Below, piece by piece: positions 21,901 to 39,014 of a stretch of DNA of 64,000 nucleotides. The position numbers were made by a program, and so were the translations under genes. Positions within the stretch are counted from its first letter, which is position 1. Every line of letters begins with the position of its first letter. The notes under the pieces were generated by a model. That model saw nothing but the letters and a program-made list of their open reading frames with translations, was not told the origin of the DNA and did not search any database. The stretch comes from Caballeronia turbans (GTDB lineage: Bacteria; Pseudomonadota; Gammaproteobacteria; Burkholderiales; Burkholderiaceae). Location of the stretch: positions 372,001 to 436,000 of the forward strand of contig FCOD02000002.1 of the NCBI GenBank assembly GCA_001544655.2, given 5' to 3'.

Positions 21901-22872
21901 CTACTTGCGGGAACGATAACGCCGATCGAGAAAACTTCTGACCAGTGCCGCAATCTCGTTCGGTTTATCGTTGAGCGCGAAGTGCCCCGCCTCGATTATG
22001 TGAACGTCGGCGTCGGGCAGATCGCGCTCGTAGGCGGGAACCTCGGCGAGTTGAAAGGACGGATCGTACTTGCCCCACACGATCAGAGTCGGCGGCTGAT
22101 GCTCGCGCAGCCACGCCTGCCATGCCGGATAACTCGCGACATTGGTCTGATACGAATAGAACAGATCGGTCTGGATATCGGCCTGGCCCGGACGGCTCAG
22201 GAACGCATATTCATCGGTCCAGCGATCCGGATCAATCTGCTCCGGATGCGGGTTCGTTCCCACATGACGCTGGCGCGTCGCTTCGAGCGAAAGAAAGTTC
22301 TTGCGAAGCGCCGCCTCGTTCGATACGCGATCCTTCCAGAATGCCCGACGCGGTTCCTACAACGGACCGAGCCCTTCTTCGTGCGCGACGGCGTTCTGAA
22401 CGATCAGCGCATCGACGCGCTCCGGATTGCGCACGGCGAGGCGCATGCCGATCGGGCCGCCGTAATCCTGCACGTAGAGCGTGTAATGCGTGAGTCCGAC
22501 CGCTTCGGTGAAATGCGCCGTGATCTCGGCGAGATGATCGAAGGTATAGGCGAAAGTCTTCGCATCGGGTGCATCGCTGTGGCCGAAACCCGGGTAGTCG
22601 GGTGCGATCAGATGGTAGCGATCCGACAGGCGCGACAGCAAAGGCTCATACATGCGCGACGACGATGGAAAGCCATGCAGCAGAAGCAGCGTCGGCGCAT
22701 CGGGATTGCCCGCTTCCCTGTAGAAGATCGAAAGCCCATCGACCTGCTTCGTTCGGTAGAGGATGGAGCGGTCGGTTGCCGTGCGCTTTGCAGCCGACGA
22801 TGCGGCCTCGCTTGCCGGGCTGATCATGGCAAGCATCGCGCAAAGCGCAGTTAGTTTCAGAGCACGGTACAT
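21901..22872 (-). pseudogene. Exported alpha/beta hydrolase (epoxide hydrolase/dehalogenase type) with internal amber codon
   Basis: The reverse-strand frame from ATG 22872 (AAGGGA upstream) to the stop at 21901 would encode 323 residues but is interrupted by TAG at 22357-22359, codon 172. Both halves are in the same frame and are clearly one protein: signal peptide (1-23), HGFPSSSRMY oxyanion loop, nucleophile motif VQDYGGPIG before the stop, then WGKYDPSF and catalytic-His motif EAGHFAL after it. The codon follows GLGPL, where I recall a Trp in relatives, so a single TGG to TAG change is the simplest cause. A truncated product would lack the acid and His of the triad. It is divergent from the ATP-citrate-lyase-like operon. 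A sequencing error cannot be excluded. Confidence 0.85.
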
Positions 22873-23355
22873 ATGAAGTCCCTTGAAGGATGATTGAAAC
22901 CTGGACCGCCTCGAGTCCATGCGCCAACCGCTCGCTTCGCCCAATTCAGCGTAGCGTCGTCGCAGGCGTAATTCGATCGTCGCACGCCTCGCGGCCGTCG
23001 TGCAGCGGTCCCGCAAAACTCTGATTCGGTGCACGCATTGATAGCCACGGAACATCAATAGTTGAAAAAATTGCACTTTTGGTTTCAGCCGGTTTGCGTG
23101 AGTATCCGTACTCAAGATTCCAGCGAAATTGGAACGTAAGTAAAACGCATCGGAGACACGCCATGCACGTCGCACGACACATTCAACGCGGCTAACGATT
23201 GCCGCTCGAGGCCGCCCGGTCTCGCGGCCCAGCCTTAACGCATACCAGACATCCGAACCCGAGCGTCAAATGGCGCGGCGGCCGCGTCGTCACGTCTGGC
23301 TCTCGTCCAAACACCCGTTTCTTTTCTATCGCAATGCCTTCAGGAGACAAACTTC
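22873..23355. other. Divergent control region ahead of the ATP-citrate-lyase-like operon
   Basis: This 483-base gap holds the duplicated promoter element described at 23031-23108 and, from there to 23355, a leader of almost 250 bases before the first gene. The leader has no convincing open frame with a ribosome binding site. A good site, AGGAGACA, lies just before the 23356 start. Confidence 0.6.
23031..23108 (+). promoter_or_regulatory. LysR-type operator/promoter element, copy A
   Basis: ATTGAT (23037-23042) and ATCAAT (23054-23059) form a perfect dyad with an 11-base spacer, the T-N11-A geometry of LysR-type regulators. Aligned without gaps to 27384-27461, 56 of 78 bases agree by hand count, far more than chance for intergenic DNA. 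Shared blocks include GCATTGATA, ACATCAAT, GCACTT and GAGTAT. The nearest LysR gene is at 30929-31873. Confidence 0.75.
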
Positions 23356-24654
23356 ATGCAAATCACCGGAATGTTGCACGGCGCGCGCCTGTTGCAATTC
23401 GTCGGATTCCCGGCGAGTGAAATCCTCGGTCCGAGCGCCAGCGAAGAGGAGATCAAGACGTTGATCGATCGTCATCGGCAGATCTTCATCAAGCCCGTCT
23501 TCAAGGGAGGCGTCGGAAAGAAGGGCAAAGCGGGCTTGCTCGGCCGCGCTACGGATCTCAAGACCGCGTTGAGCGAAAAAGAACGGTTGTACTTCGCCGA
23601 ACACACTGTCGGCCATCTGAAAGCGAAGGCAAATGGTGTGACGTTCGAAGCCGGCGTGCCGGCCGAGCACGAAGTTTATTTCTCGATCACCGATTCAACC
23701 CGCTTTCGCGCACCGACGATGACCCTCTCGCACAAGGGCGGCATGGACATCGAAGAGGTCGATCCGAAGCATGTGGCGATGGTGCCTTTCGACGCGTTGA
23801 CGGGCCTGAAGGCGTTCGTCGTGGCAAATGCGCTGAGCGAGATCGGCGCGCCGAAGGAGATCATCTCGCCGCTCGTGCAGCAGTTGCCGAAACTCTGGGA
23901 GCTCTTTCACGACTTCGGCATGACGACGCTGGAGCTCAATCCGATCCGCATGCGCGAGGACAGGAACGGACGCCTGACGCCGGTCGCATGCGACTTCAAG
24001 TGCGGCTTCGATCGCGACGATCCGCGCTGGACGCGCCTTGGACTCCCGCAACACCTGTTCGCCGCCGACTACTCCGACTTCGAGCAGGAGATCAATCAGT
24101 TGCGCACGCATCAGGGCCAAAGCGATGTGTACGTGATCAACGACAAGGGAACGATCCTCGCGCCGACCTTTGGCGGGGGCGCCAACTCGCTCGTCACCGA
24201 AATGCTCGGCGACGCCGCGATCATTTCGTCGGATTTCGGTGGCAATCCACCTTACGCGAAGATGAAGGAAGTGGCCCGTATCTGCTTCAGGCATTGGCTC
24301 AGGCAATCGAACGTGCTTTTCATCATCGGCGGCAAGTCGAACAACACCGACATCTTCGAGACGTTGCGAGCGATGGCCGATGCCCTTCGCGAACACTTCA
24401 GCGAGCATGGACCGACGCCGCTCTACGTGGTGCTCGGCCGTGGCGGGCCGAACCTTGTGCGCGGCATGGCGGCGTTGAGAGACACCTGCGACTCGCTCGG
24501 GTTGCCTTACAGACTTTTCGGATTCGACTCCGACATCAGCGAAGTCATCCAGTACGCCCGAAAGGCGGATGCGTGGATGCGTGAGGGTGGCCGGGCCGAG
24601 ATCGCAGCACGGATCGGCGCGACCGTGAAGACAGCCGAAACGGCTCAGGCTTGA
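23356..24654 (+). CDS. ATP-citrate-lyase-like subunit: ATP-grasp succinyl-CoA-synthetase-beta and citrate-binding domains
   Basis: A 432-residue cytoplasmic protein resembling the beta (AclB) part of ATP-citrate lyase. An ATP-grasp domain covers about residues 1-240, with IKPVFKGGVGKKGKAGL, HKGGMDIEEVDP and MTTLELNPIRM. A C-terminal ACL-type citrate-binding domain follows, with GGGANSLVTEMLGD, FIIGGKSNNTDIFETL (compare GGSIANFTNVAATF in animal enzyme, from memory) and GRGGPN. With the next gene it would activate a carboxylate as a CoA thioester using ATP. ACL-like enzymes are rare in heterotrophic proteobacteria. It starts after AGGAGACA and lies 10 bases before its partner. Substrate is inferred to be a tri- or dicarboxylate from the transporters alongside. 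Confidence 0.82.
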   Translation: MQITGMLHGARLLQFVGFPASEILGPSASEEEIKTLIDRHRQIFIKPVFKGGVGKKGKAGLLGRATDLKTALSEKERLYFAEHTVGHLKAKANGVTFEAGVPAEHEVYFSITDSTRFRAPTMTLSHKGGMDIEEVDPKHVAMVPFDALTGLKAFVVANALSEIGAPKEIISPLVQQLPKLWELFHDFGMTTLELNPIRMREDRNGRLTPVACDFKCGFDRDDPRWTRLGLPQHLFAADYSDFEQEINQLRTHQGQSDVYVINDKGTILAPTFGGGANSLVTEMLGDAAIISSDFGGNPPYAKMKEVARICFRHWLRQSNVLFIIGGKSNNTDIFETLRAMADALREHFSEHGPTPLYVVLGRGGPNLVRGMAALRDTCDSLGLPYRLFGFDSDISEVIQYARKADAWMREGGRAEIAARIGATVKTAETAQA

Positions 24655-24664
24655 GGAGTACGAC

Positions 24665-27364
24665 ATGCATAAGCAACACAGCAAACCGTTCAAGTATTTC
24701 GTCGGCGTCAACTCGCTCGCGCAGATCGCCACACGCGACGATCGCGTGTGCGTGCTCAACATTCTGGGGGGCGAGTCGTCGGACGTGACGCCCGTCAGCC
24801 ACGCCTTCTCGGGCGGCAATATCGTCTTCGGTACGGCACCGGGGAAGGGCGGGAAAACGCTCGCGACACCGATCGGCGATATCCCGGTGTACAACAACGT
24901 CCGCGAAGGGCTGGAGGCCGGGCACCGTTTCAATTGCGGCGTGGTGTACCTGCCGCCATCGGCTGCGCGCGACGGCGTCGCCGAACTGATTCGCGTCAAT
25001 CCAGAGCTTAAGAAGATTTTCATCATCACCGAGAAGATCGCTGTGCACGACGCCCGCGAAATTCGAGCGATGGGCCAGCAAGCCGGCATCGACATCTTTG
25101 GGGCGAACGGGCTGGGGGTCGCGGACTCGTGGAATCGCGTGAGGATCGGCGGAGCGCTCGGCGGCGACAATCCGGACGATTCGCTGCGCAAAGGGTCGAT
25201 CGCGATCTTCTCCAACTCAGGCGGATTCAGCACGACGATCGCGCAATATTTGCGCATGAGCGGCTGGGGCACATCGACCGTCATTTCGAGCGGCAAGGAT
25301 GTCTACATCCACTACGCCGCGCCGGAGTTTGCATTTGCACTCGCCAACGACGCGCGCAGCAAGGCCGCCGTGCTCTATTGCGAACCGGGCGGCTATTACG
25401 AAGCCGACGCGACGTTCACGAAGCCGGTAGTCGCCTGCGTGGTGGGCCGATGGAAGGGCCGCCTGACGCGTGCGGTCGGTCATGCAGGCGCGATGGCCGG
25501 CGGTTCCGATGACGCGCAGGCGAAAGAACGCTGGTTCATGGAGAAGTTCGGCGTCGACCGGCTCTTCACGCCTGACGATCCTTGCTGCTCGGCAAAAGGC
25601 GCGGTCGTGACGAACATCGCGCATATCCCGGCGGCGCTGACGGCCGTCATGCGCGCCAACGCGACGATGCCCGACTTCGAGCCCGAAGGCAGCCTCGCGC
25701 TCAAGCCGTGGTTCGGCTCAGACCAGGGCATCGAGCTGCCCTCCGGTCTTGCGATTCCCGTGGTCGGTGCGGTCGCTCCGTACGACGAGCAAGTCTTGCA
25801 GGTCAACAGCCAGATCGGGGCGGTCGCGCCGCGTCAATCGCTCAAGGACGCATCGGGCGCATCGCAGATGGATGCGAAGACGCAAGTCAGCAGCCTGCAC
25901 GGAACGTCGATGCTCGACGCCGCGACGCGCTCACTCGAAGCGAACGTGAATCTCGCGCTGCTGCACGAACCCGGCGGCGAGAACGACGAAAAGCTGATCA
26001 ACGTGGCGGTCGCGGCATCGGTCAATCTGCATGGAACGCCGGAGCTCGTCGCGGCTCAGGCGGCGCGAGAGGCGGGCAATGCACCCAACGCGATTCTGGC
26101 GGCTGCGGCATCGATCGTCGGGCCGAATCGTCAGCGCGCCGCGCGCGATGCCGCCCAATGGTTGATCGACCACTTCTCGGCTGCGGGCCTCACGAATGCG
26201 CTCGACGACAGCTTCGATATCGGCCAGATCGACGGCACCGGCAGCGAGCCGCTCTTCACGGACGCTCGCGATCCGCGCGCCGAGGCGATGCTCGCGGGAC
26301 TTGCGAGGCGCGGCGCCAAGTCCGTATTGATCCGCTGGCTCACGTCGCAGCCGGCGCACCCGACGGCGGACGCCGTGCTCGCCGCGATCACGACCACGCT
26401 GGCGTGGGGGCCGCTCATGCGCAAGCGCGTGTCGCGCGTGACCGCCGAGAGCCTGCCTTGGTGGACCATGTTGTTCGGACGATTGATCGGCGCTTCGGCC
26501 GATGCATCTCGTCACGCCCCGGGAGGCTTCTGCGGCTTCACCACCGAATCGCTCCTGAACGAACGCAGCCTCACCGAAATTTGCTTCGCCGCATTGCTCG
26601 ATCTCGAACCCGGCCCCGACGATCTGTTCGCCTTCAAAACGCTCGCGGGGCTGCTGCTCACCAACGGTCCCGGAGCCATTTCGGCGCAAGGGGCGAAAGG
26701 CGCCGTATCCGCCGACGGTCCCGAAAGCCCCGAGCGCGTGCAACTCAACAAGGCGCTCGTCGGCTTCCTTTCGCATACCGGCTATACGCATGGCGGCAAC
26801 GGCTACGAGGGAATCGCCTTTTTGATCGAAGCGTTCCGCGACACGCCGCTCAGCGATCCGTCGGACGCCGGCCACGGCGTGGATCTGCGCAAGCTGGCCG
26901 CGCGCGCGGTGGAGCATTACGCGCAATACAAGGCGCGCAAGAAGAACGCGGGCAGCCTGGACATCGCGAAGCTGCCAGGGGTCAATCATCCGGTGTTCAA
27001 GGACAGGCCCGTCAATCATGACCCGCGCGAAGTGTTCATCGCAAATCTGTGCGAGCAACGCGGGGAATACAACGCGTTCCATGCGTTCTATCGCGAGCTC
27101 GTGCAGGCGCTGTTCGATGCCGGCGTGTCGCGCAACGTGTATTGCGTGAACGTCGATGCGGTGATCGCGGCGCTGCTGCTCAAGATGCTGTGGCAACCGC
27201 TGCGACGCGGCGATCTGGCGGAGTCGGATCTGGAAACTGCCGCGTTCACGATCTTCCTGTATCCCAGGATGCTCGGCTGCGCGGCGGAAATCGACGATCA
27301 CCTGAACCGTGGACGCAACATGGACACGCGCACGCCCGCTTCCCAGTGCCGCTTCGTCGCCTGA
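24665..27364 (+). CDS. ATP-citrate-lyase-like subunit: SucD-type CoA ligase fused to citrate-synthase-like domain
   Basis: An 899-residue protein. Residues 1-340 are a succinyl-CoA-synthetase-alpha-like unit with the phosphohistidine motif [10 protein letters not shown] (H273). Residues about 420-890 are citrate-synthase-like: [18 protein letters not shown] (H775) aligns with the GIGH motif, and [15 protein letters not shown] (D831) with LNVDGLIG. At the place of the other catalytic His (HGPAVSGAH in ATP-citrate lyase) it reads [10 protein letters not shown] (667-676), so that His seems replaced by Gln or lost. It is about 290 residues longer than a two-subunit AclA, with the first half of the citrate-synthase fold expanded. 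It may split a citrate analogue, or only make a CoA thioester. AGGAG precedes the start. Confidence 0.8.
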
Positions 27365-28832: not shown

Positions 28833-29615
28833 ATGAAATCCATCCTTCTGAAATTCTGCACCGCCGCGCTGCTCGGCAACGCCGTCGCCGCGGCGAACGT
28901 ACAGGCCGCCGATCTGCATGTGATGAGTTCGGGTGGCTTTACCGCGGCGTACAAGCTGCTCGGACCGAAGTTCTCGGCATCGACGGGCGATACCCTAGAC
29001 ACCGCGCTCGGCCCGTCGATGGGCAAGTCGCCGGAGGCCATTCCAAACCGTCTTCAGCGCGGCGAGCCTGCGGACGTGGTGATCATGGTCGGCTATGCAC
29101 TCGACGACCTGATCAGGCAGGGCAAGGTAATGCCCGACTCGCGTGTGGAGCTCGCGGACTCGCGCATCGGCATGGTTGTGCGCGACGGTGCGCCGAAGCC
29201 TGACATCGGGTCCGAGGCGGCGCTCAAGGAGACCCTGCTGCGCGCCCGGTCGATCGCGTATTCGGACAGCGCGAGCGGCGTCTATATCGAGCGCGAGTTG
29301 TTCAAGCGGCTCGGTATCGAAGAGCAGGTGAAGGCCAAGGCGAAGATGATCCCGAAGATCCCGGTGGCCTCCGTGGTGGCGACCGGCGATTACGAAGTGG
29401 GCTTTCAGCAGGTGAGCGAGTTGCTTCCGGTGAAGGGCGCCGCGTACGTCGGCAAGATTCCGGAGTCGATGCAGTCCGTCACGCGCTTTGCGGCCGGCAT
29501 TCCCGTTGGCGCGCAACATCCGAAGGAAGCGAAGGCGCTGCTCGACTATCTCGCGTCGCCCGCCGTGCAGCCGGAGGTGATATCGACCGGACTCGATTCC
29601 GTCGCCGCGCATTGA
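28833..29615 (+). CDS. Exported ModA-like (extracellular solute-binding) protein without partner transporter
   Basis: A 260-residue protein with a signal peptide (1-25, ending VQAAD) and a ModA/PBP type II fold: LHVMSSGGFTAAYKLLGPKF, NRLQRGEPADVVIM, SIAYSDSASGVYIERELFKRLGI and YLASPAVQPEVI near the end. Molybdate proteins use Ser/Ala-type oxyanion contacts; the SSGG and SDSASG loops here could bind an oxyanion or carboxylate. No ABC permease or ATPase is adjacent. It starts 22 bases after the symporter, so it may present a carboxylate or signal its presence. Molybdate is unlikely given the context. Confidence 0.78.
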   Translation: MKSILLKFCTAALLGNAVAAANVQAADLHVMSSGGFTAAYKLLGPKFSASTGDTLDTALGPSMGKSPEAIPNRLQRGEPADVVIMVGYALDDLIRQGKVMPDSRVELADSRIGMVVRDGAPKPDIGSEAALKETLLRARSIAYSDSASGVYIERELFKRLGIEEQVKAKAKMIPKIPVASVVATGDYEVGFQQVSELLPVKGAAYVGKIPESMQSVTRFAAGIPVGAQHPKEAKALLDYLASPAVQPEVISTGLDSVAAH

Positions 29616-29630
29616 GAAGAGCGCAACGAT

Positions 29631-30932
29631 TCAGCCCGGCAGGTCGGCGGGCTGATCGAAGTCTTCTTCAGGCTCGTGCGCGAGGCTCAGTGCTTCTTTC
29701 AGGCGCGCTCGGTCGCACGCGCGCTCCCACATCGATACGAAGATCACCGCGCACGCGTTGCTGATCACGCTCGTCAGGGCGCGCGACTCGGACATGAACC
29801 GATCGATGCCCACGAGCAGCGCGACGCCCGCCAGCGGCAGGTCCGGAATGACGGCGAGCGTCGCGACGAGCGCAACGAGTCCGCTGCCCGATACGCCTGC
29901 CGCGCCCTTCGACGTGAGCAGCATGACCGCGAGCATCGTCGCGATTTGTCCGCCGGAGAGGTGGACGTCGCATGCTTGAGCGATGAACATCGAAGCGAGC
30001 GTCAGGTAGATTGCCGTTCCGTCGAGGTTGAAGGAATAGCCGGCGGGCAGCACGAGCCCGACGATCCCCTTGTCGCAGCCAAGCGCTTCCAGCTTGACGA
30101 TGAGGCGCGGCAACACGGGTTCTGTCGACGACGTCGCGAGCACGATGATGAGTTCCTCGCGAATGTAGCGCAGCAGCCGCCAGAGCGAGAAGCCGTGCAG
30201 GCGCGCGAGCGGGCCGAGCACGCAGACGACGAACAGCAGGCACGCCGCATAGAACGACACCATCAGCATGCCGAGCGAGCCGATCGAGCGGATGCCGAAC
30301 CGGCCTACCGTGAAAGCCATCGCGCCGAATGCGCCGGCCGGCGCGAGCCGCATGATCAGCGCGAGAATGCCGAACAGCACGTGCGCGATTCCATCGATGA
30401 ATTCCTGTACCCGCCGCCCCGTGCCTCGACTGGCGTTCAATGCGAAGCCGAACAGAAGGGCGAGCAGCAGGACCGGCAGCACTTCGCCTTTCTCGAACGC
30501 GCCGACGAGCGTCTCCGGAATCACGTGCAGCGCGAATTCCACGAGTCCGTGCGGCTGTGCGCGCGTCGAATACTGGGCGAGGACGGCCGTGTCGAGATGG
30601 TGCGGGTCGATGTGCAGTCCTGCGCCGGGATGCAGCGCGAAGGCGGTTGCGAGCCCCAGGACGAGCGCGACGATCGTGAGAAAGTAAAACAGCGCCAGCG
30701 CTTTCAAAATGGCGCGGCCGATCTTCGAGCCGCTCGACAGCGACGTGATGCCGGTCACGATCGTGCAGAAGACGATGGGCGCGATCATCATGCGCACCAG
30801 CGCGACGAATGCATCGCTGAGCGGCTTGAGCGACGCACCGGCCTGCGGCCAGAAGTGCCCGACGATCACGCCGAGCCCCATGCAGAGCAGGACCTGGACG
30901 TAGAGCAGATTGAAAGGCCTCGGCAGGGTCAT
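29631..30932 (-). CDS. dctA: C4-dicarboxylate:cation symporter (DctA family)
   Basis: A 433-residue DAACS-family inner-membrane symporter for succinate, fumarate, malate or similar acids. Family marks are MMIAPIVFCTIVTGI, ATSSTEPVLPRLIVKLE, the re-entrant AGYSFNLDGTAIYLTLASMFIAQA and LLTSKGAAGVSGSGLVAL. ATG 30932 overlaps the LysR stop (ATGA), so it is translationally coupled to the regulator. A longer frame on this strand is an artefact of the overlapping LysR gene. The gene converges on the citrate-type operon with a 15-base gap. It could export or import the C4 acid produced by the lyase-like reaction. Confidence 0.9.
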   Translation of the reverse strand: MTLPRPFNLLYVQVLLCMGLGVIVGHFWPQAGASLKPLSDAFVALVRMMIAPIVFCTIVTGITSLSSGSKIGRAILKALALFYFLTIVALVLGLATAFALHPGAGLHIDPHHLDTAVLAQYSTRAQPHGLVEFALHVIPETLVGAFEKGEVLPVLLLALLFGFALNASRGTGRRVQEFIDGIAHVLFGILALIMRLAPAGAFGAMAFTVGRFGIRSIGSLGMLMVSFYAACLLFVVCVLGPLARLHGFSLWRLLRYIREELIIVLATSSTEPVLPRLIVKLEALGCDKGIVGLVLPAGYSFNLDGTAIYLTLASMFIAQACDVHLSGGQIATMLAVMLLTSKGAAGVSGSGLVALVATLAVIPDLPLAGVALLVGIDRFMSESRALTSVISNACAVIFVSMWERACDRARLKEALSLAHEPEEDFDQPADLPG

Positions 30933-31873
30933 TTCGCGGTCTTCTTTGCTGCAGCGGCCATGCCGCTGCGCTTGGTGTCGAGGATGGTTTGATAGAACTG
31001 CTGCGCGGCCGGCGCGAGCGGACGCCCCCTGCGCCGCACGATGCCGACTCGCCTCGTTACGACCGGATCGACGAGCGGCACGCTGGTCAGGATCGGATGG
31101 TCGCGCATGGGCATTGCCATCGAAGGCACGGCGGCCACGCCGAGGCCCGCTTCGATCAGGCCGAGCATCGTGGTGACATGGCGTGTCTCGCAGATGCTCG
31201 GCACAGCCGGCGCCACGGTGGTCAATGCCTGATCGAGCAGCAGGCGGTTGCCGGAAGTCTTGTCGACGGATACGTATTCGTGTTCGTACAGCTCGCTCCA
31301 GGACACACGGGTCTTTCGGGCAAGCGGATGATCGCGGCGGCACGCGGCCACGAACTTTTCCTGCAGCAGGACCTTGAACTCGACCTCGGTCTCCTGGCTG
31401 CCCATGAAGCTGACGCCGAAATCGGCTTCGCCGCTGATGACCGAGCCGAGGACTTCGTTCGCGCTCGTGTCGAGCAGCTTGACCCGGATGCGCGGATAGC
31501 GGGCGTGGTAGGCAGCAACGACGCTCGGCAGGAAGTAGTAGGCTACCGACGGCACGCACGCGATGGTCACATGGCCCAGGCGGCTGGTGGACACGTCGCG
31601 GATGCCGAGCAACGCGACATCGAGATCGTCGAGAAGCTGTTCCGCACTTGGGGCGAACACGCGGCCTACGGTCGTGAGTGTCACACTACGGGTGGTGCGC
31701 TCGAAAAGTCGCACGCCGAGCGCCGCTTCCAACTTCTCGATGCGCCGGCTCAGTGCCGGCTGCGAGATGTTGACTGAGTCCGCAGCCTTGCGAAAGCTGC
31801 CCAACTCCACGACGGCTCGAAACGCCTGCAAATCGTTCAGATCGAAGTTGACGCCCACAAGCTGTCTCCGCAT
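30929..31873 (-). CDS. LysR family transcriptional regulator, candidate controller of the carboxylate module
   Basis: A 314-residue regulator. The winged helix is at about residues 8-70 (FRKAADSVNISQPALSRRIEKLE), followed by a LysR substrate domain with VTIACVPSVAYYFLPSVVAAYHARYPRI. It heads the lysR-dctA operon. The two ATTGAT-N11-ATCAAT sites in the facing operons have LysR geometry, which makes this the likely protein, but I found no copy of the site in its own upstream region. Start ATG 31873 is used; a GTG 18 bases in is also possible. Confidence 0.87.
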   Translation of the reverse strand: MRRQLVGVNFDLNDLQAFRAVVELGSFRKAADSVNISQPALSRRIEKLEAALGVRLFERTTRSVTLTTVGRVFAPSAEQLLDDLDVALLGIRDVSTSRLGHVTIACVPSVAYYFLPSVVAAYHARYPRIRVKLLDTSANEVLGSVISGEADFGVSFMGSQETEVEFKVLLQEKFVAACRRDHPLARKTRVSWSELYEHEYVSVDKTSGNRLLLDQALTTVAPAVPSICETRHVTTMLGLIEAGLGVAAVPSMAMPMRDHPILTSVPLVDPVVTRRVGIVRRRGRPLAPAAQQFYQTILDTKRSGMAAAAKKTAK

Positions 31874-36140: not shown

Positions 36141-38537
36141 TTAAAACGGCCACACCCATTCCGCGATTTCCGGCTTATCGGTGCCGTGCGTGTGCGCGTA
36201 ATCCAGATGAGAGATGACCGCGTTCTTCATGTCCTCTCTCAGGTGCGCGGTTCTTCCGCGCAGGCGAGGCACGCGATCGAGCACATCGATCACGAGATTG
36301 AAACGATCGACCTGATTGAGTATTGCCAGTTCGAGCGGCGTGTTGATGTTGCCCTTCTCCTTGTAACCGCGCACGTGCAGGTTTTCATGATTTCGGAACC
36401 GGTAGGCGAGCCTGTGGATCAGCCATGGATAGCCGTGGAAATTGAAGATCACGGGCTTGTCGATGGTGAACAGGCTTTCGAAATTGCGCACGCTCGATCC
36501 ATGCGGATGCTCCGTGTTCGGCTGCATCTTGAAGAGATCGACGACGTTCACGAAGCGCACCTTCAGCTCTGGCAAACGCTCACGGAGAATAGCGGTCGCG
36601 GCGAGCGCTTCCTGCGTCGCAACATCGCCGCAGGAAGCCATGACGACGTCGGGTTCTTCGTGTTCGTCGTTGCTCGCGCGCCGCCACACGCCGATGCCCT
36701 TCTCGCAGTGGACGATCGCTTCGTCGATGGTCATGAACTGCAAATGCTTCTGCTTGTCCGCGACGATCACATTGATGCAATCGCTCGAGCGCAGGCATTG
36801 ATCGGCCACGACGAGCAGCGTGTTGGCATCGGGCGGGAGATACACGCGCGTCACCGACGGGCTCTTGTTGGTGACGAGATCGATGAAGCCGGGGTCCTGA
36901 TGCGAGAAGCCATTGTGATCCTGCCGCCATACGGTCGACGAGAGCAGGATGGTTTCCGACGAAACCGACGCGCGCCACGGCACATGGTTCTTGCAGATGT
37001 CGAGCCATTTCGCATGCTGATTGAACATCGAATCGATGACATGCGCGAATGCTTCGTACGTATGGAAGAAGCCATGTCGCCCCGACAGCAGATAGCCTTC
37101 GAGCCAGCCGAGAAGCGTGTGCTCGGAGAGCATTTCCATCACGCGGCCGTCGCGCGACAACTCGCCGCCGTCCTCGTCTTCCGGAAGGAGATCGGCCATC
37201 CAGACTTTCTTGCTGACTTCATAGATGGCCTGTAGGCGATTCGATGCCGTCTCGTCGGGGCCGAACACGCGAAACCTGTCCATATTGCAACGCATCACGT
37301 CGCGCAGGAAGGCGCCCAGCGGACGCGTGTTCTCATGCTGGATCTTGCCTGCCTGACCGACATCGACGGCGTAGTCGCGAAAATCCGGCAGCTTCAGTTC
37401 CTTGCGCAGCACGCCGCCGTTAGTGTGGGGATTCGCGCTCATGCGGCGCGTACCGGTGGGCGCGATCGCCCGAATCTCCGCGCGCAGCCGGCCGTCGGCG
37501 TCGAAAAGTTCTTCGGGCTGGTAGCTCTGCATCCAGCGTTCGAGCACCGCGAGATTCGCGGGATTGCCGTGCACATCGGAGAATGGGACCTGATGCGCGC
37601 GCCACGAGCCTTCGACCTTGTGACCGTTGATTTCCTTCGGGCCGGTCCAGCCTTTCGGCGTGCGCAGGACGATCATCGGCCAGCGCGGCCGCTCGACGTC
37701 CTTATTGCTGCGCGCCTCGTCCCAGATCGCGCGGATCTCGGCGGTGGCGGCATCGAGTGTTTCCGCCATCTTTTGATGCATCTCGACGGGATCCGATCCT
37801 TCGACGAAATACGGTCGATAGCCATAGCCGACGAACAACGCCTCGAGTTCGTCATGGCTGATGCGCGCGAGGATCGTCGGATTGGCGATCTTGTAGCCGT
37901 TCAGATTCAGGATCGGCAGCACGGCGCCGTCGCGCGCGGGATTGATGAACTTGTTCGAGTGCCAGGCCGTCGCGAGCGGGCCGGTCTCAGCTTCGCCGTC
38001 GCCGACGACGCAGGCGACGATCAAGCGCGGATTGTCCAGTGCCGCCCCATACGCGTGAGAAAGGCTATACCCAAGCTCCCCGCCTTCATGAATGGAGCCC
38101 GGGGTTTCCGGCGTCACGTGCGAGCCGATATGCCCGGGAAAAGAGAACTGCTTGAAGAACTTCTGCATGCCTTCTTCATCTTCGCTCTTGTCCGGATACA
38201 CCTCCGAATAGGTGCCTTCGAGGTACGCCGGACCGAGCACGCCGGGCGCGCCATGACCGGGCCCGGCCATGAAGATCACGTCGAGATCGTCACGCTTGAT
38301 CACGCGGTTCAGATGCGCCCACACGAACGAGAGAGCGGGGCTCGCGCCCCAGTGACCGAGCAGGCGCTGCTTGACGTGCTCGGGTTTGAGCGGCTCGCGC
38401 AGGAGCGGATTGTCAATGAGAAAGATCATGCCCGCGGAAAGGTAGTTGCACGCGCGCCACCACGCATCGACGAGTCGAAGTTCGTCGCTCTCGAGGACAG
38501 GCTCTTGCGATGTATCGCCTCTGGAGTGCTTGCTCAT
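36141..38537 (-). CDS. xfp: Xylulose-5-phosphate/fructose-6-phosphate phosphoketolase
   Basis: A 798-residue thiamine-diphosphate enzyme that splits xylulose 5-phosphate (or fructose 6-phosphate) with phosphate to acetyl phosphate and an aldose phosphate. Seen are [20 protein letters not shown] near the N-terminus, [19 protein letters not shown], the ThDP motif [19 protein letters not shown], and [15 protein letters not shown]. Length matches the family (about 800). ATG 38537 has GGAG nine bases upstream; a TTG 18 bases earlier is in frame but unsupported. A relic of a second copy lies at 48835-48979. Acetate kinase or phosphotransacetylase genes are not adjacent. Confidence 0.93.
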
Positions 38538-39014
38538 TACGACGTCTCCATTCAATGAACGTGCATCGGAACATAGGTGGCATGTATCCGCGCGGCGTTG
38601 CGCCGCGCACGGGTCGTCCCTTCGCCGCGAGGACGCTGAGCGTTGCCGGTGTCATGTACAGCTTTAACTGACCCTTCGTTATAGAGTCGATATCACGCAC
38701 GCGCACCAAATTCAAGTAGCACGAGGCCTTGCTTAAGTCAGTACTTAAAGTTTCCTTCAGGACGACGCTCTTGCTGCCACCACGGTGTCATGTCTGTTGC
38801 GTTGCGGTCGTCGCGTGTGGCCAGGCGCTAAGGAATACTGCCGCGGATAGTGCAATGAGGAGGCGAATCGTTTTCGAAAAGCTGGAATGCTTTGGACGGT
38901 CGCGTATCGAGTTTTTAATCGATTGCGCTCATCGCTCTGGCTGAACTATCTTGAAAGCGAAGCCCTCGCGACCGGATCGAACGCGAAGGGCGTTCATCGG
39001 GCGCGGAGGGGGAC
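38538..39014. promoter_or_regulatory. Divergent control region of phosphoketolase, with hairpin and dyad
   Basis: The 477 bases contain a perfect GC hairpin, GCGCGGCG-TTG-CGCCGCGC (38590-38608), in the phosphoketolase leader, and a dyad TTAAGT-CAGT-ACTTAA (38733-38748) about 200 bases upstream of the start. The hairpin and its flank recur beside the phosphoketolase relic at 48950-48979. The dyad has FNR-like spacing but not the FNR sequence. I see no small gene. Confidence 0.5.

Follow-up and report, generated by a model that had tools for sequence, protein, structure and literature searches.

A transport-linked type II ATP-citrate lyase gene pair from Caballeronia turbans with a doubled lyase half and a predicted citrate-synthase-like active site

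Results and discussion

We analysed a stretch of 64,000 nucleotides from the soil bacterium Caballeronia turbans (contig FCOD02000002.1, positions 372,001 to 436,000; hereafter the window), in which two adjacent genes encode the subunits of an enzyme related to ATP-citrate lyase (ACL). The pair is a transport-linked variant of type II ACL, a family known by name and, as far as the open-licence literature shows, uncharacterised. It probably serves the catabolism of imported citrate, which would be cleaved in the second of two tandem citrate-synthase-homology (CSH) repeats of the large subunit. The doubled lyase part and the citrate-synthase-like predicted site are relevant to the unsettled question of how enzymes of this kind cleave citrate.

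The two same-strand open reading frames (ORFs) are separated by a gap of 10 bp (Table 1). The gene pair is real and found in many genomes, and its initial annotation as an ACL-like two-subunit enzyme holds. As that annotation had proposed, the small subunit combines an ATP-grasp with an ACL citrate-binding domain, since both ATP-grasp_2 (PF08442; 56.3 bits, cut-off 29.5) and the citrate-binding profile PF16114 (55.7 bits, cut-off 26.8) were above cut-off. PF24948, the ATP-citrate synthase ATP-grasp domain that marks type I ACL, was not reached (42.7 bits, cut-off 83), and no type I ACL scored above this cut-off in 398 Pseudomonadota genomes. In the large subunit, domains for CoA binding and succinyl-CoA ligase were found, together with a citrate synthase match below threshold. 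H273 (in GHAGA), H775 (in GVNHPVFK) and D831 (in VNVDAVIA) were located as previously described for this chain. For both ligase parts, the closest sequence relatives in the PDB are the two subunits of Hydrogenobacter citryl-CoA synthetase (6hxq), which also has the NNT motif. A PDB profile search with the lyase half alone gave nothing useful (one chance match, E 0.32).

Type II ACL, named by Huegler and Sievert as cited in Thiel et al. (2012), is a postulated enzyme known from symbionts of tubeworms and from magnetotactic cocci; the literature also describes citrate cleavage in strain MC-1 despite a lack of known ACL genes. The pair shares with the type II enzymes of Riftia/Lamellibrachia symbionts, Magnetococcus and Chromatiaceae the two-gene order, the length of about 900 aa, the invariant residues and the peptides at the type II primer sites acl2F1/acl2R1 (VAKEEWF/NGFEAIA versus QAKERWF/NGYEGIA; the forward primer matches poorly at the DNA level). 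Identity to members from Magnetococcales, Sedimenticola and Hydrogenophilales is 55-63%, and the match to Magnetococcales WMHbin3 (L076) is full length (55.5% over 908 columns). Those enzymes are described as part of the reverse tricarboxylic acid (rTCA) cycle, and PMC6315080 describes rTCA clusters in which type II aclAB accompanies acn, idh and mdh, whereas the pair in the window adjoins a tricarboxylate symporter. An origin of type II ACL from citryl-CoA synthetase and lyase (CCS-CCL) is prior art, because PMC5459899 shows, in its tree, fused CcsB-Ccl proteins from Planctomycetes at a position between CCS-CCL and type II ACL; by their description there, these proteins likewise join a ligase half and a lyase in one chain.

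Table 1. Features of the gene pair and its surroundings in the window
Feature	Position (strand)	Characteristics
Small subunit, 432 aa	23356..24654 (+)	ATP-grasp and citrate-binding domain; citryl-CoA-synthetase-large-subunit-like (N329 N330 T331, R362 of RGGPN)
Large subunit, 899 aa	24665..27364 (+)	CoA-binding/phospho-His ligase half fused to two tandem CSH repeats
Ligase half, residues 1-335	24665..25669 (+)	citryl-CoA-synthetase-small-subunit-like; phosphohistidine H273 codon 25481-25483
Repeat R1, residues about 393-615	25841..26509 (+)	degenerate CSH repeat
Repeat R2, residues about 616-890	26510..27334 (+)	conserved repeat with N667, H709, H775, D831, R868
N667 codon	26663..26665 (+)	position of ACLY His900 (low-confidence alignment columns)
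H709 codon (HGGNG)	26789..26791 (+)	position of citrate-synthase HGGA His and ACLY Phe935
H775 codon (NHPVFK)	26987..26989 (+)	position of ACLY His975
D831 codon (NVDA)	27155..27157 (+)	position of ACLY Asp1026
TcuC-type tricarboxylate/proton symporter (major facilitator superfamily), 432 aa	27513..28811 (+)	NF011656 762.4 bits, cut-off 445
Orphan periplasmic binding protein (PF13531)	28833..29615 (+)	profile match
DctA C4-dicarboxylate symporter	29631..30932 (-)	PF00375 315.8 bits; annotated relative
LysR-type regulator, same strand as dctA	30929..31873 (-)	profile match; annotated relative

The lyase half is a tandem repeat

Two CSH repeats, R1 and R2, follow each other in the large subunit, with an R1-R2 profile score of 72.6 against at most 21.0 in 30 shuffles. 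The catalytic residues are kept in R2, and R1 is degenerate. The 41-row alignment that shows both the repeat and the residue exchange described below includes rTCA-type as well as transporter-linked members. Type I ACL (human ACLY, Chlorobium 6hxj) has the same domain order but only one CSH domain per chain. A model of the whole chain had the Chlorobium type I chain 6hxj_B as its top Foldseek match (E 1.1e-11), and the lyase model matched Hydrogenobacter citryl-CoA lyase 6hxp (E 2.5e-5, TMt 0.67). Hydrogenobacter has a synthetase and a lyase that are not joined, and the lyase domain is short and occurs once (256 aa in 6hxp); here the two are fused and the lyase part is doubled. ACL chains were not among the best 50 structure-neighbour (VIA) rows, a result that carries no evidential weight either way. 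A search for internal doubling in citrate synthase itself gave no sequence signal.

Two further leads on the chain's architecture were rejected. The idea of a split gene came from L062, where ligase and lyase parts appear as two ORFs; the linker holds one in-frame stop, and no ribosome site was seen just before the second ORF. An apparently free-standing R2 in genome G778 is a truncated remnant of the large subunit (L177 6691-7716) that covers residues about 560-899; the surrounding 14 kb yielded neither a small subunit nor TcuC or DctA. One species of the genus has lost the gene by decay.

Predicted active site of R2

Numbering human ACLY by the coordinates printed in its PDB row places His900 in DHGP, Phe935 in RFGG, His975 in GIGH and Asp1026 in NVDG; the counterparts in the window are NGPG, HGGNG, VNHP and NVDA. 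An ungapped reading anchored on GP pairs His900 with N667, which the profile alignment shows only in low-confidence columns. The initial annotation had called the active site altered, with the first His, in the stretch 667-676, replaced by Q675 or a gap. Indeed there is no His at the His900 position, but the residue found there is N667, and Q675 falls on ACLY His908. Moreover, a third conserved His had been overlooked: H709 stands where ACLY has Phe935. When 17 citrate synthases from retrieved loci were aligned as a profile, their HGGA His fell on H709, the His of their GFGH motif on H775 and the Asp of NVD on D831. Only sub-regions could be aligned in this way; a global hhalign alignment of the whole lyase half with citrate synthase or the ACLY fragment failed.

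H273, N667, Q675, H709, H775, D831 and R868 are invariant in 78 of 78 aligned large subunits. This alignment was drawn from 83 sequences, leaving out L085 (the window's own copy), L022, L060, L062 and L073 (duplicate, incomplete, broken or without small subunit); alignments A1 and A2 hold 41 of the 78 rows, A3 holds 39. Because N667 and H709 never vary in the 78 rows, the "missing His" is, judged by the aligned sequences, a family-wide exchange of residues and not a plain loss. The His/His/Asp residues of the HGG, GxGH and NVD motifs are thus constant, and their proposed equivalence to citrate synthase comes from an alignment of 30-33% probability. We take citrate synthase to use these positions as acetyl-CoA-binding His, oxaloacetate-binding His and base. 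With a residue map built on weak alignments and a strong fold match, the predicted active site looks more like that of citrate synthase than that of human ACLY. Three explanations had been offered for the altered site, of which a shifted residue fits best. An enzyme running the CoA-ligation step only is disfavoured because H709, H775, D831 and R868 are invariant; cleavage of a citrate analogue is disfavoured less.

Ligase half and site of cleavage

The site at which ACL cuts citryl-CoA is disputed: PMC10115795 sets out two models. In model 1 the CSH module does the cutting; in model 2 the ligase half does, and the CSH module is allosteric. Wei et al. (2023) emphasise ACLY Phe347 and its flip for cleavage in the ligase half. 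In the small subunit, Phe347 pairs with N330, which is invariant in 39 of 39 sequences and is found in citryl-CoA synthetase as well (NNT), and ACLY Arg379 pairs with R362 of RGGPN. By these residues, the citrate site of the ligase half resembles that of citryl-CoA synthetase. Glu123 of the ligase half, presumably the counterpart of ACLY Glu599, is invariant in 41 of 41 sequences, as would be expected if the CSH repeats were allosteric only and citryl-CoA were both made and cleaved in the ligase half. This proposal, which follows Wei et al., can also draw on the ligase half of ACLY D1026A, which still forms citryl-CoA from the products (PMC10115795). We nevertheless consider it unlikely for the enzyme studied here, given the Asn at the Phe347 position and the citrate-synthase-like set kept in R2, including a His at the Phe935 position. 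The residue pattern leans towards model 1 for the type II family and leaves ACLY undecided. In this dispute the family is a natural experiment, with the His900 and Phe347 positions both replaced and a citrate-synthase-like His present.

Genomic context of the family

A scan of genome_contigs matched 127 stretches, 104 of which encode a relative; 80 were kept. Together with one locus from the order sample, seven plasmid loci and the window, these make up 89 loci. By a strict count, 50 of them have TcuC, TctA/B, 2HCT or TcuA/B near the pair, some reference genes for the labelling having come from the same loci, which therefore count themselves. Including weaker labels, 59 loci are of the tricarboxylate type, nine of which owe the label to no more than a TctC-like receptor (at least 30% identity) or a tautomerase. 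TcuC at 60% identity or more occurs in 38 loci, in 36 directly downstream; the 38 comprise 33 Burkholderiaceae of largely similar layout and five loci of Variovorax and Methylobacterium. Other arrangements include TctA/TctB with a sensor pair (L117), TcuA/TcuB with a tautomerase (L119) and a 2HCT carrier (L121 and L048). Only four loci (L062, L065, L071, L086) contain aconitase, isocitrate or malate dehydrogenase or SucCD, for example mdh and idh in L071 (Sedimenticola) and aconitase and idh in L065 (Hydrogenophilus). A first count had given five, with L063 labelled rTCA only via Fe-S/NAD-binding reductase genes common with L065; it was removed in the recount. No locus has both tricarboxylate and TCA/rTCA neighbours.

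In a tree of the family, the window groups with Burkholderiaceae rows having TcuC context, and the rTCA-labelled rows form two separate groups. Tree and context do not separate cleanly: with L063 still labelled rTCA, the three labels need 12 changes against a shuffled mean of 17.2, a value as low being reached in none of 200 shuffles. Because tricarboxylate-type loci, many of which are near copies, make up 50 of the 89 and the TCA/rTCA type only four, type II aclAB can mislead as an rTCA marker in metagenomes; these genes alone need not mean autotrophy.

Carriers of three unrelated families, all named for citrate or tricarboxylates, lie near one enzyme in different genomes, which points to citrate as the shared substrate. 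The enzyme might instead act on citramalate or on a hydroxy-tricarboxylate other than citrate (2-methylcitrate, homocitrate), as the changed His900 position could suggest and as would be compatible with 2-methylcitrate synthases ranking alongside citrate synthases as fold neighbours (Z within 1). Both kinds of synthase lack a ligase half and give a weak sequence signal. We regard such a substrate as improbable: the ligase half retains the citrate-site motifs RGGPN and NNT, other members have TCA-type neighbours, and the 2HCT carrier of L048, which starts 35 bp downstream, has the citrate:cation symporter TIGR00783 as its best NCBIfam match (331.7 bits for a fragment, cut-off 549). Tricarballylate lacks the hydroxyl that a retro-Claisen cleavage requires. 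Its catabolism in the own genome was set aside as a candidate, the TcuB model TIGR02484 finding no match there, with a weak control (0 of 14 control genomes passed the cut-off).

Proposed reaction

For the favoured reading, catabolic cleavage of imported citrate in R2, the following course can be envisaged. Citrate would enter via the TcuC symporter and be bound, with ATP, by the small subunit. His273 of the large subunit would be phosphorylated and pass its phosphate to citrate, and attack by CoA would give citryl-CoA, the thioester of which may then move to R2. There, Asp831, His709 and His775 would carry out a retro-Claisen cleavage, like citrate synthase in reverse, with Asn667 replacing one oxaloacetate-binding His, and the products would be acetyl-CoA and oxaloacetate. 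R1 is probably structural, an inactive partner replacing part of the four-copy CSH core of ordinary ACL. That the pair works in reverse in vivo, making citrate from acetyl-CoA, oxaloacetate, ADP and Pi as an ATP-forming citrate synthase, is very improbable: the active site resembles citrate synthase and a succinyl-CoA-synthetase-type half reaction is presumably reversible, but the genome has a normal citrate synthase of its own (474.6 bits) and the neighbours are importers.

Several results weigh against cleavage of imported citrate in R2. On the sequence level, Citrate_synt (PF00285) stays below its cut-off of 27 (24.2 bits for the whole chain, 26.6 for residues 380-899); 19 of 41 family members match at E up to 1. 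The alignment of R2 with citrate synthase has, besides its low probability, an E of about 5e-4 and scores 33.4, where 30 shuffles reached at most 23.6; that of R2 with the ACLY fragment has a probability under 2%. With a profile of the 17 citrate synthases, hmmsearch gave E 0.067 for the window and 4.4e-5 for the best member, L080, and R1 against citrate synthase is at shuffle level (20.8 vs maximum 20.6; 13.0 vs 14.6). The full-chain model is weaker (pLDDT 76.3, pTM 0.58). On the context side, 26 of 89 loci have neither kind of neighbour (15 with less than 5 kb on one side, 11 with 5 kb or more on each side). Of the 50 strict loci, 33 are the window's close kin (large subunit more than 80% identical to that of L115). 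For human ACLY, finally, PMC10115795 supports model 2.

In the tandem repeat we see a specific candidate for the stage linking citryl-CoA lyase with citrate synthase. Citrate synthase has reportedly been linked to the tetrameric citryl-CoA lyase module. We tentatively suggest, as a rather doubtful extension of the above, that the type II lyase half could be an extant intermediate, standing between ordinary ACL with its four-copy citryl-CoA-lyase core and two-copy citrate synthase. The citryl-CoA-lyase domain would have doubled in tandem, one copy losing its active site and the other, in which cleavage would take place (model 1), carrying the citrate-synthase catalytic His, so that one chain spans the extent of one citrate synthase chain; heterotrophs would then have turned a CO2-fixation enzyme citrate-catabolic by coupling it to importers. 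Within the accessible text of the open-licence PMC literature, we found no mention of the doubled CSH repeat, the His exchange or the heterotrophic citrate-uptake setting of type II ACL.

Distribution

The kept relatives are 55-96% identical and come from beta-, alpha- and gammaproteobacteria and Magnetococcales; the nearest proteins, at 96%, are those of Caballeronia telluris, humi and glebae. Of 72,556 plasmid records, 19 carry 80% or more of the protein at a single place. In the host's family, 12 of 200 genomes match at E up to 1e-100, 11 at full length and one as a remnant (only 610-899). In its order, 264 of the 300 genomes sampled give a match with E no higher than 0.001, only two at full length; the others, among the matches listed, cover the succinyl-CoA-synthetase-like part. 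The large-subunit gene is patchily distributed, and the initial statement that such enzymes are unusual in heterotrophic proteobacteria stands in this respect, but not in view of the 104 stretches encoding a relative. Paraburkholderia lacunae S27 (L050, L079) has two divergent large-subunit copies (69% and 90%), as does G761 (91% and 72%), which suggests separate acquisitions.

Neighbouring genes and own genome

The tricarboxylate symporter and dctA noted earlier beside the pair are present next door, as NF011656 and PF00375 matches. A second TcuC-class symporter (65%) is encoded elsewhere in the genome (G000:C57:34984-36240), the assembly of which comprises 7.35 Mb in 120 contigs. POR_N has a single match there, just over its cut-off (30.2 bits, cut-off 27), no other rTCA gene having been sought in this genome. 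The PF13531 protein downstream of the symporter is below the cut-off of the ModA model (33.4 vs 62.5 bits). A homologue lies near the pair in 33 of the 89 loci, mostly directly after TcuC, and in L042 (7122-7919; 51%) between the two lyase subunit genes. Three loci have a gene for a YciA-like acyl-CoA thioesterase, overlapping the end of the large-subunit gene in L119 (10702-11088) and L051 (10693-11109) and upstream in L117 (2911-3288). All three proteins are below the NCBIfam cut-off; their substrate may be acetyl-CoA or a dead-end CoA ester. The window also encodes a phosphoketolase (XFP; 36141-38555, minus strand), another acetyl-group-producing enzyme, roughly 9 kb away from the pair. On the pair's other side, two adjacent alpha/beta-hydrolase pieces (21901-22263 and 22357-23175, minus strand) correspond to the two ends of Abhydrolase_1 with the middle absent, which looks like a broken gene.

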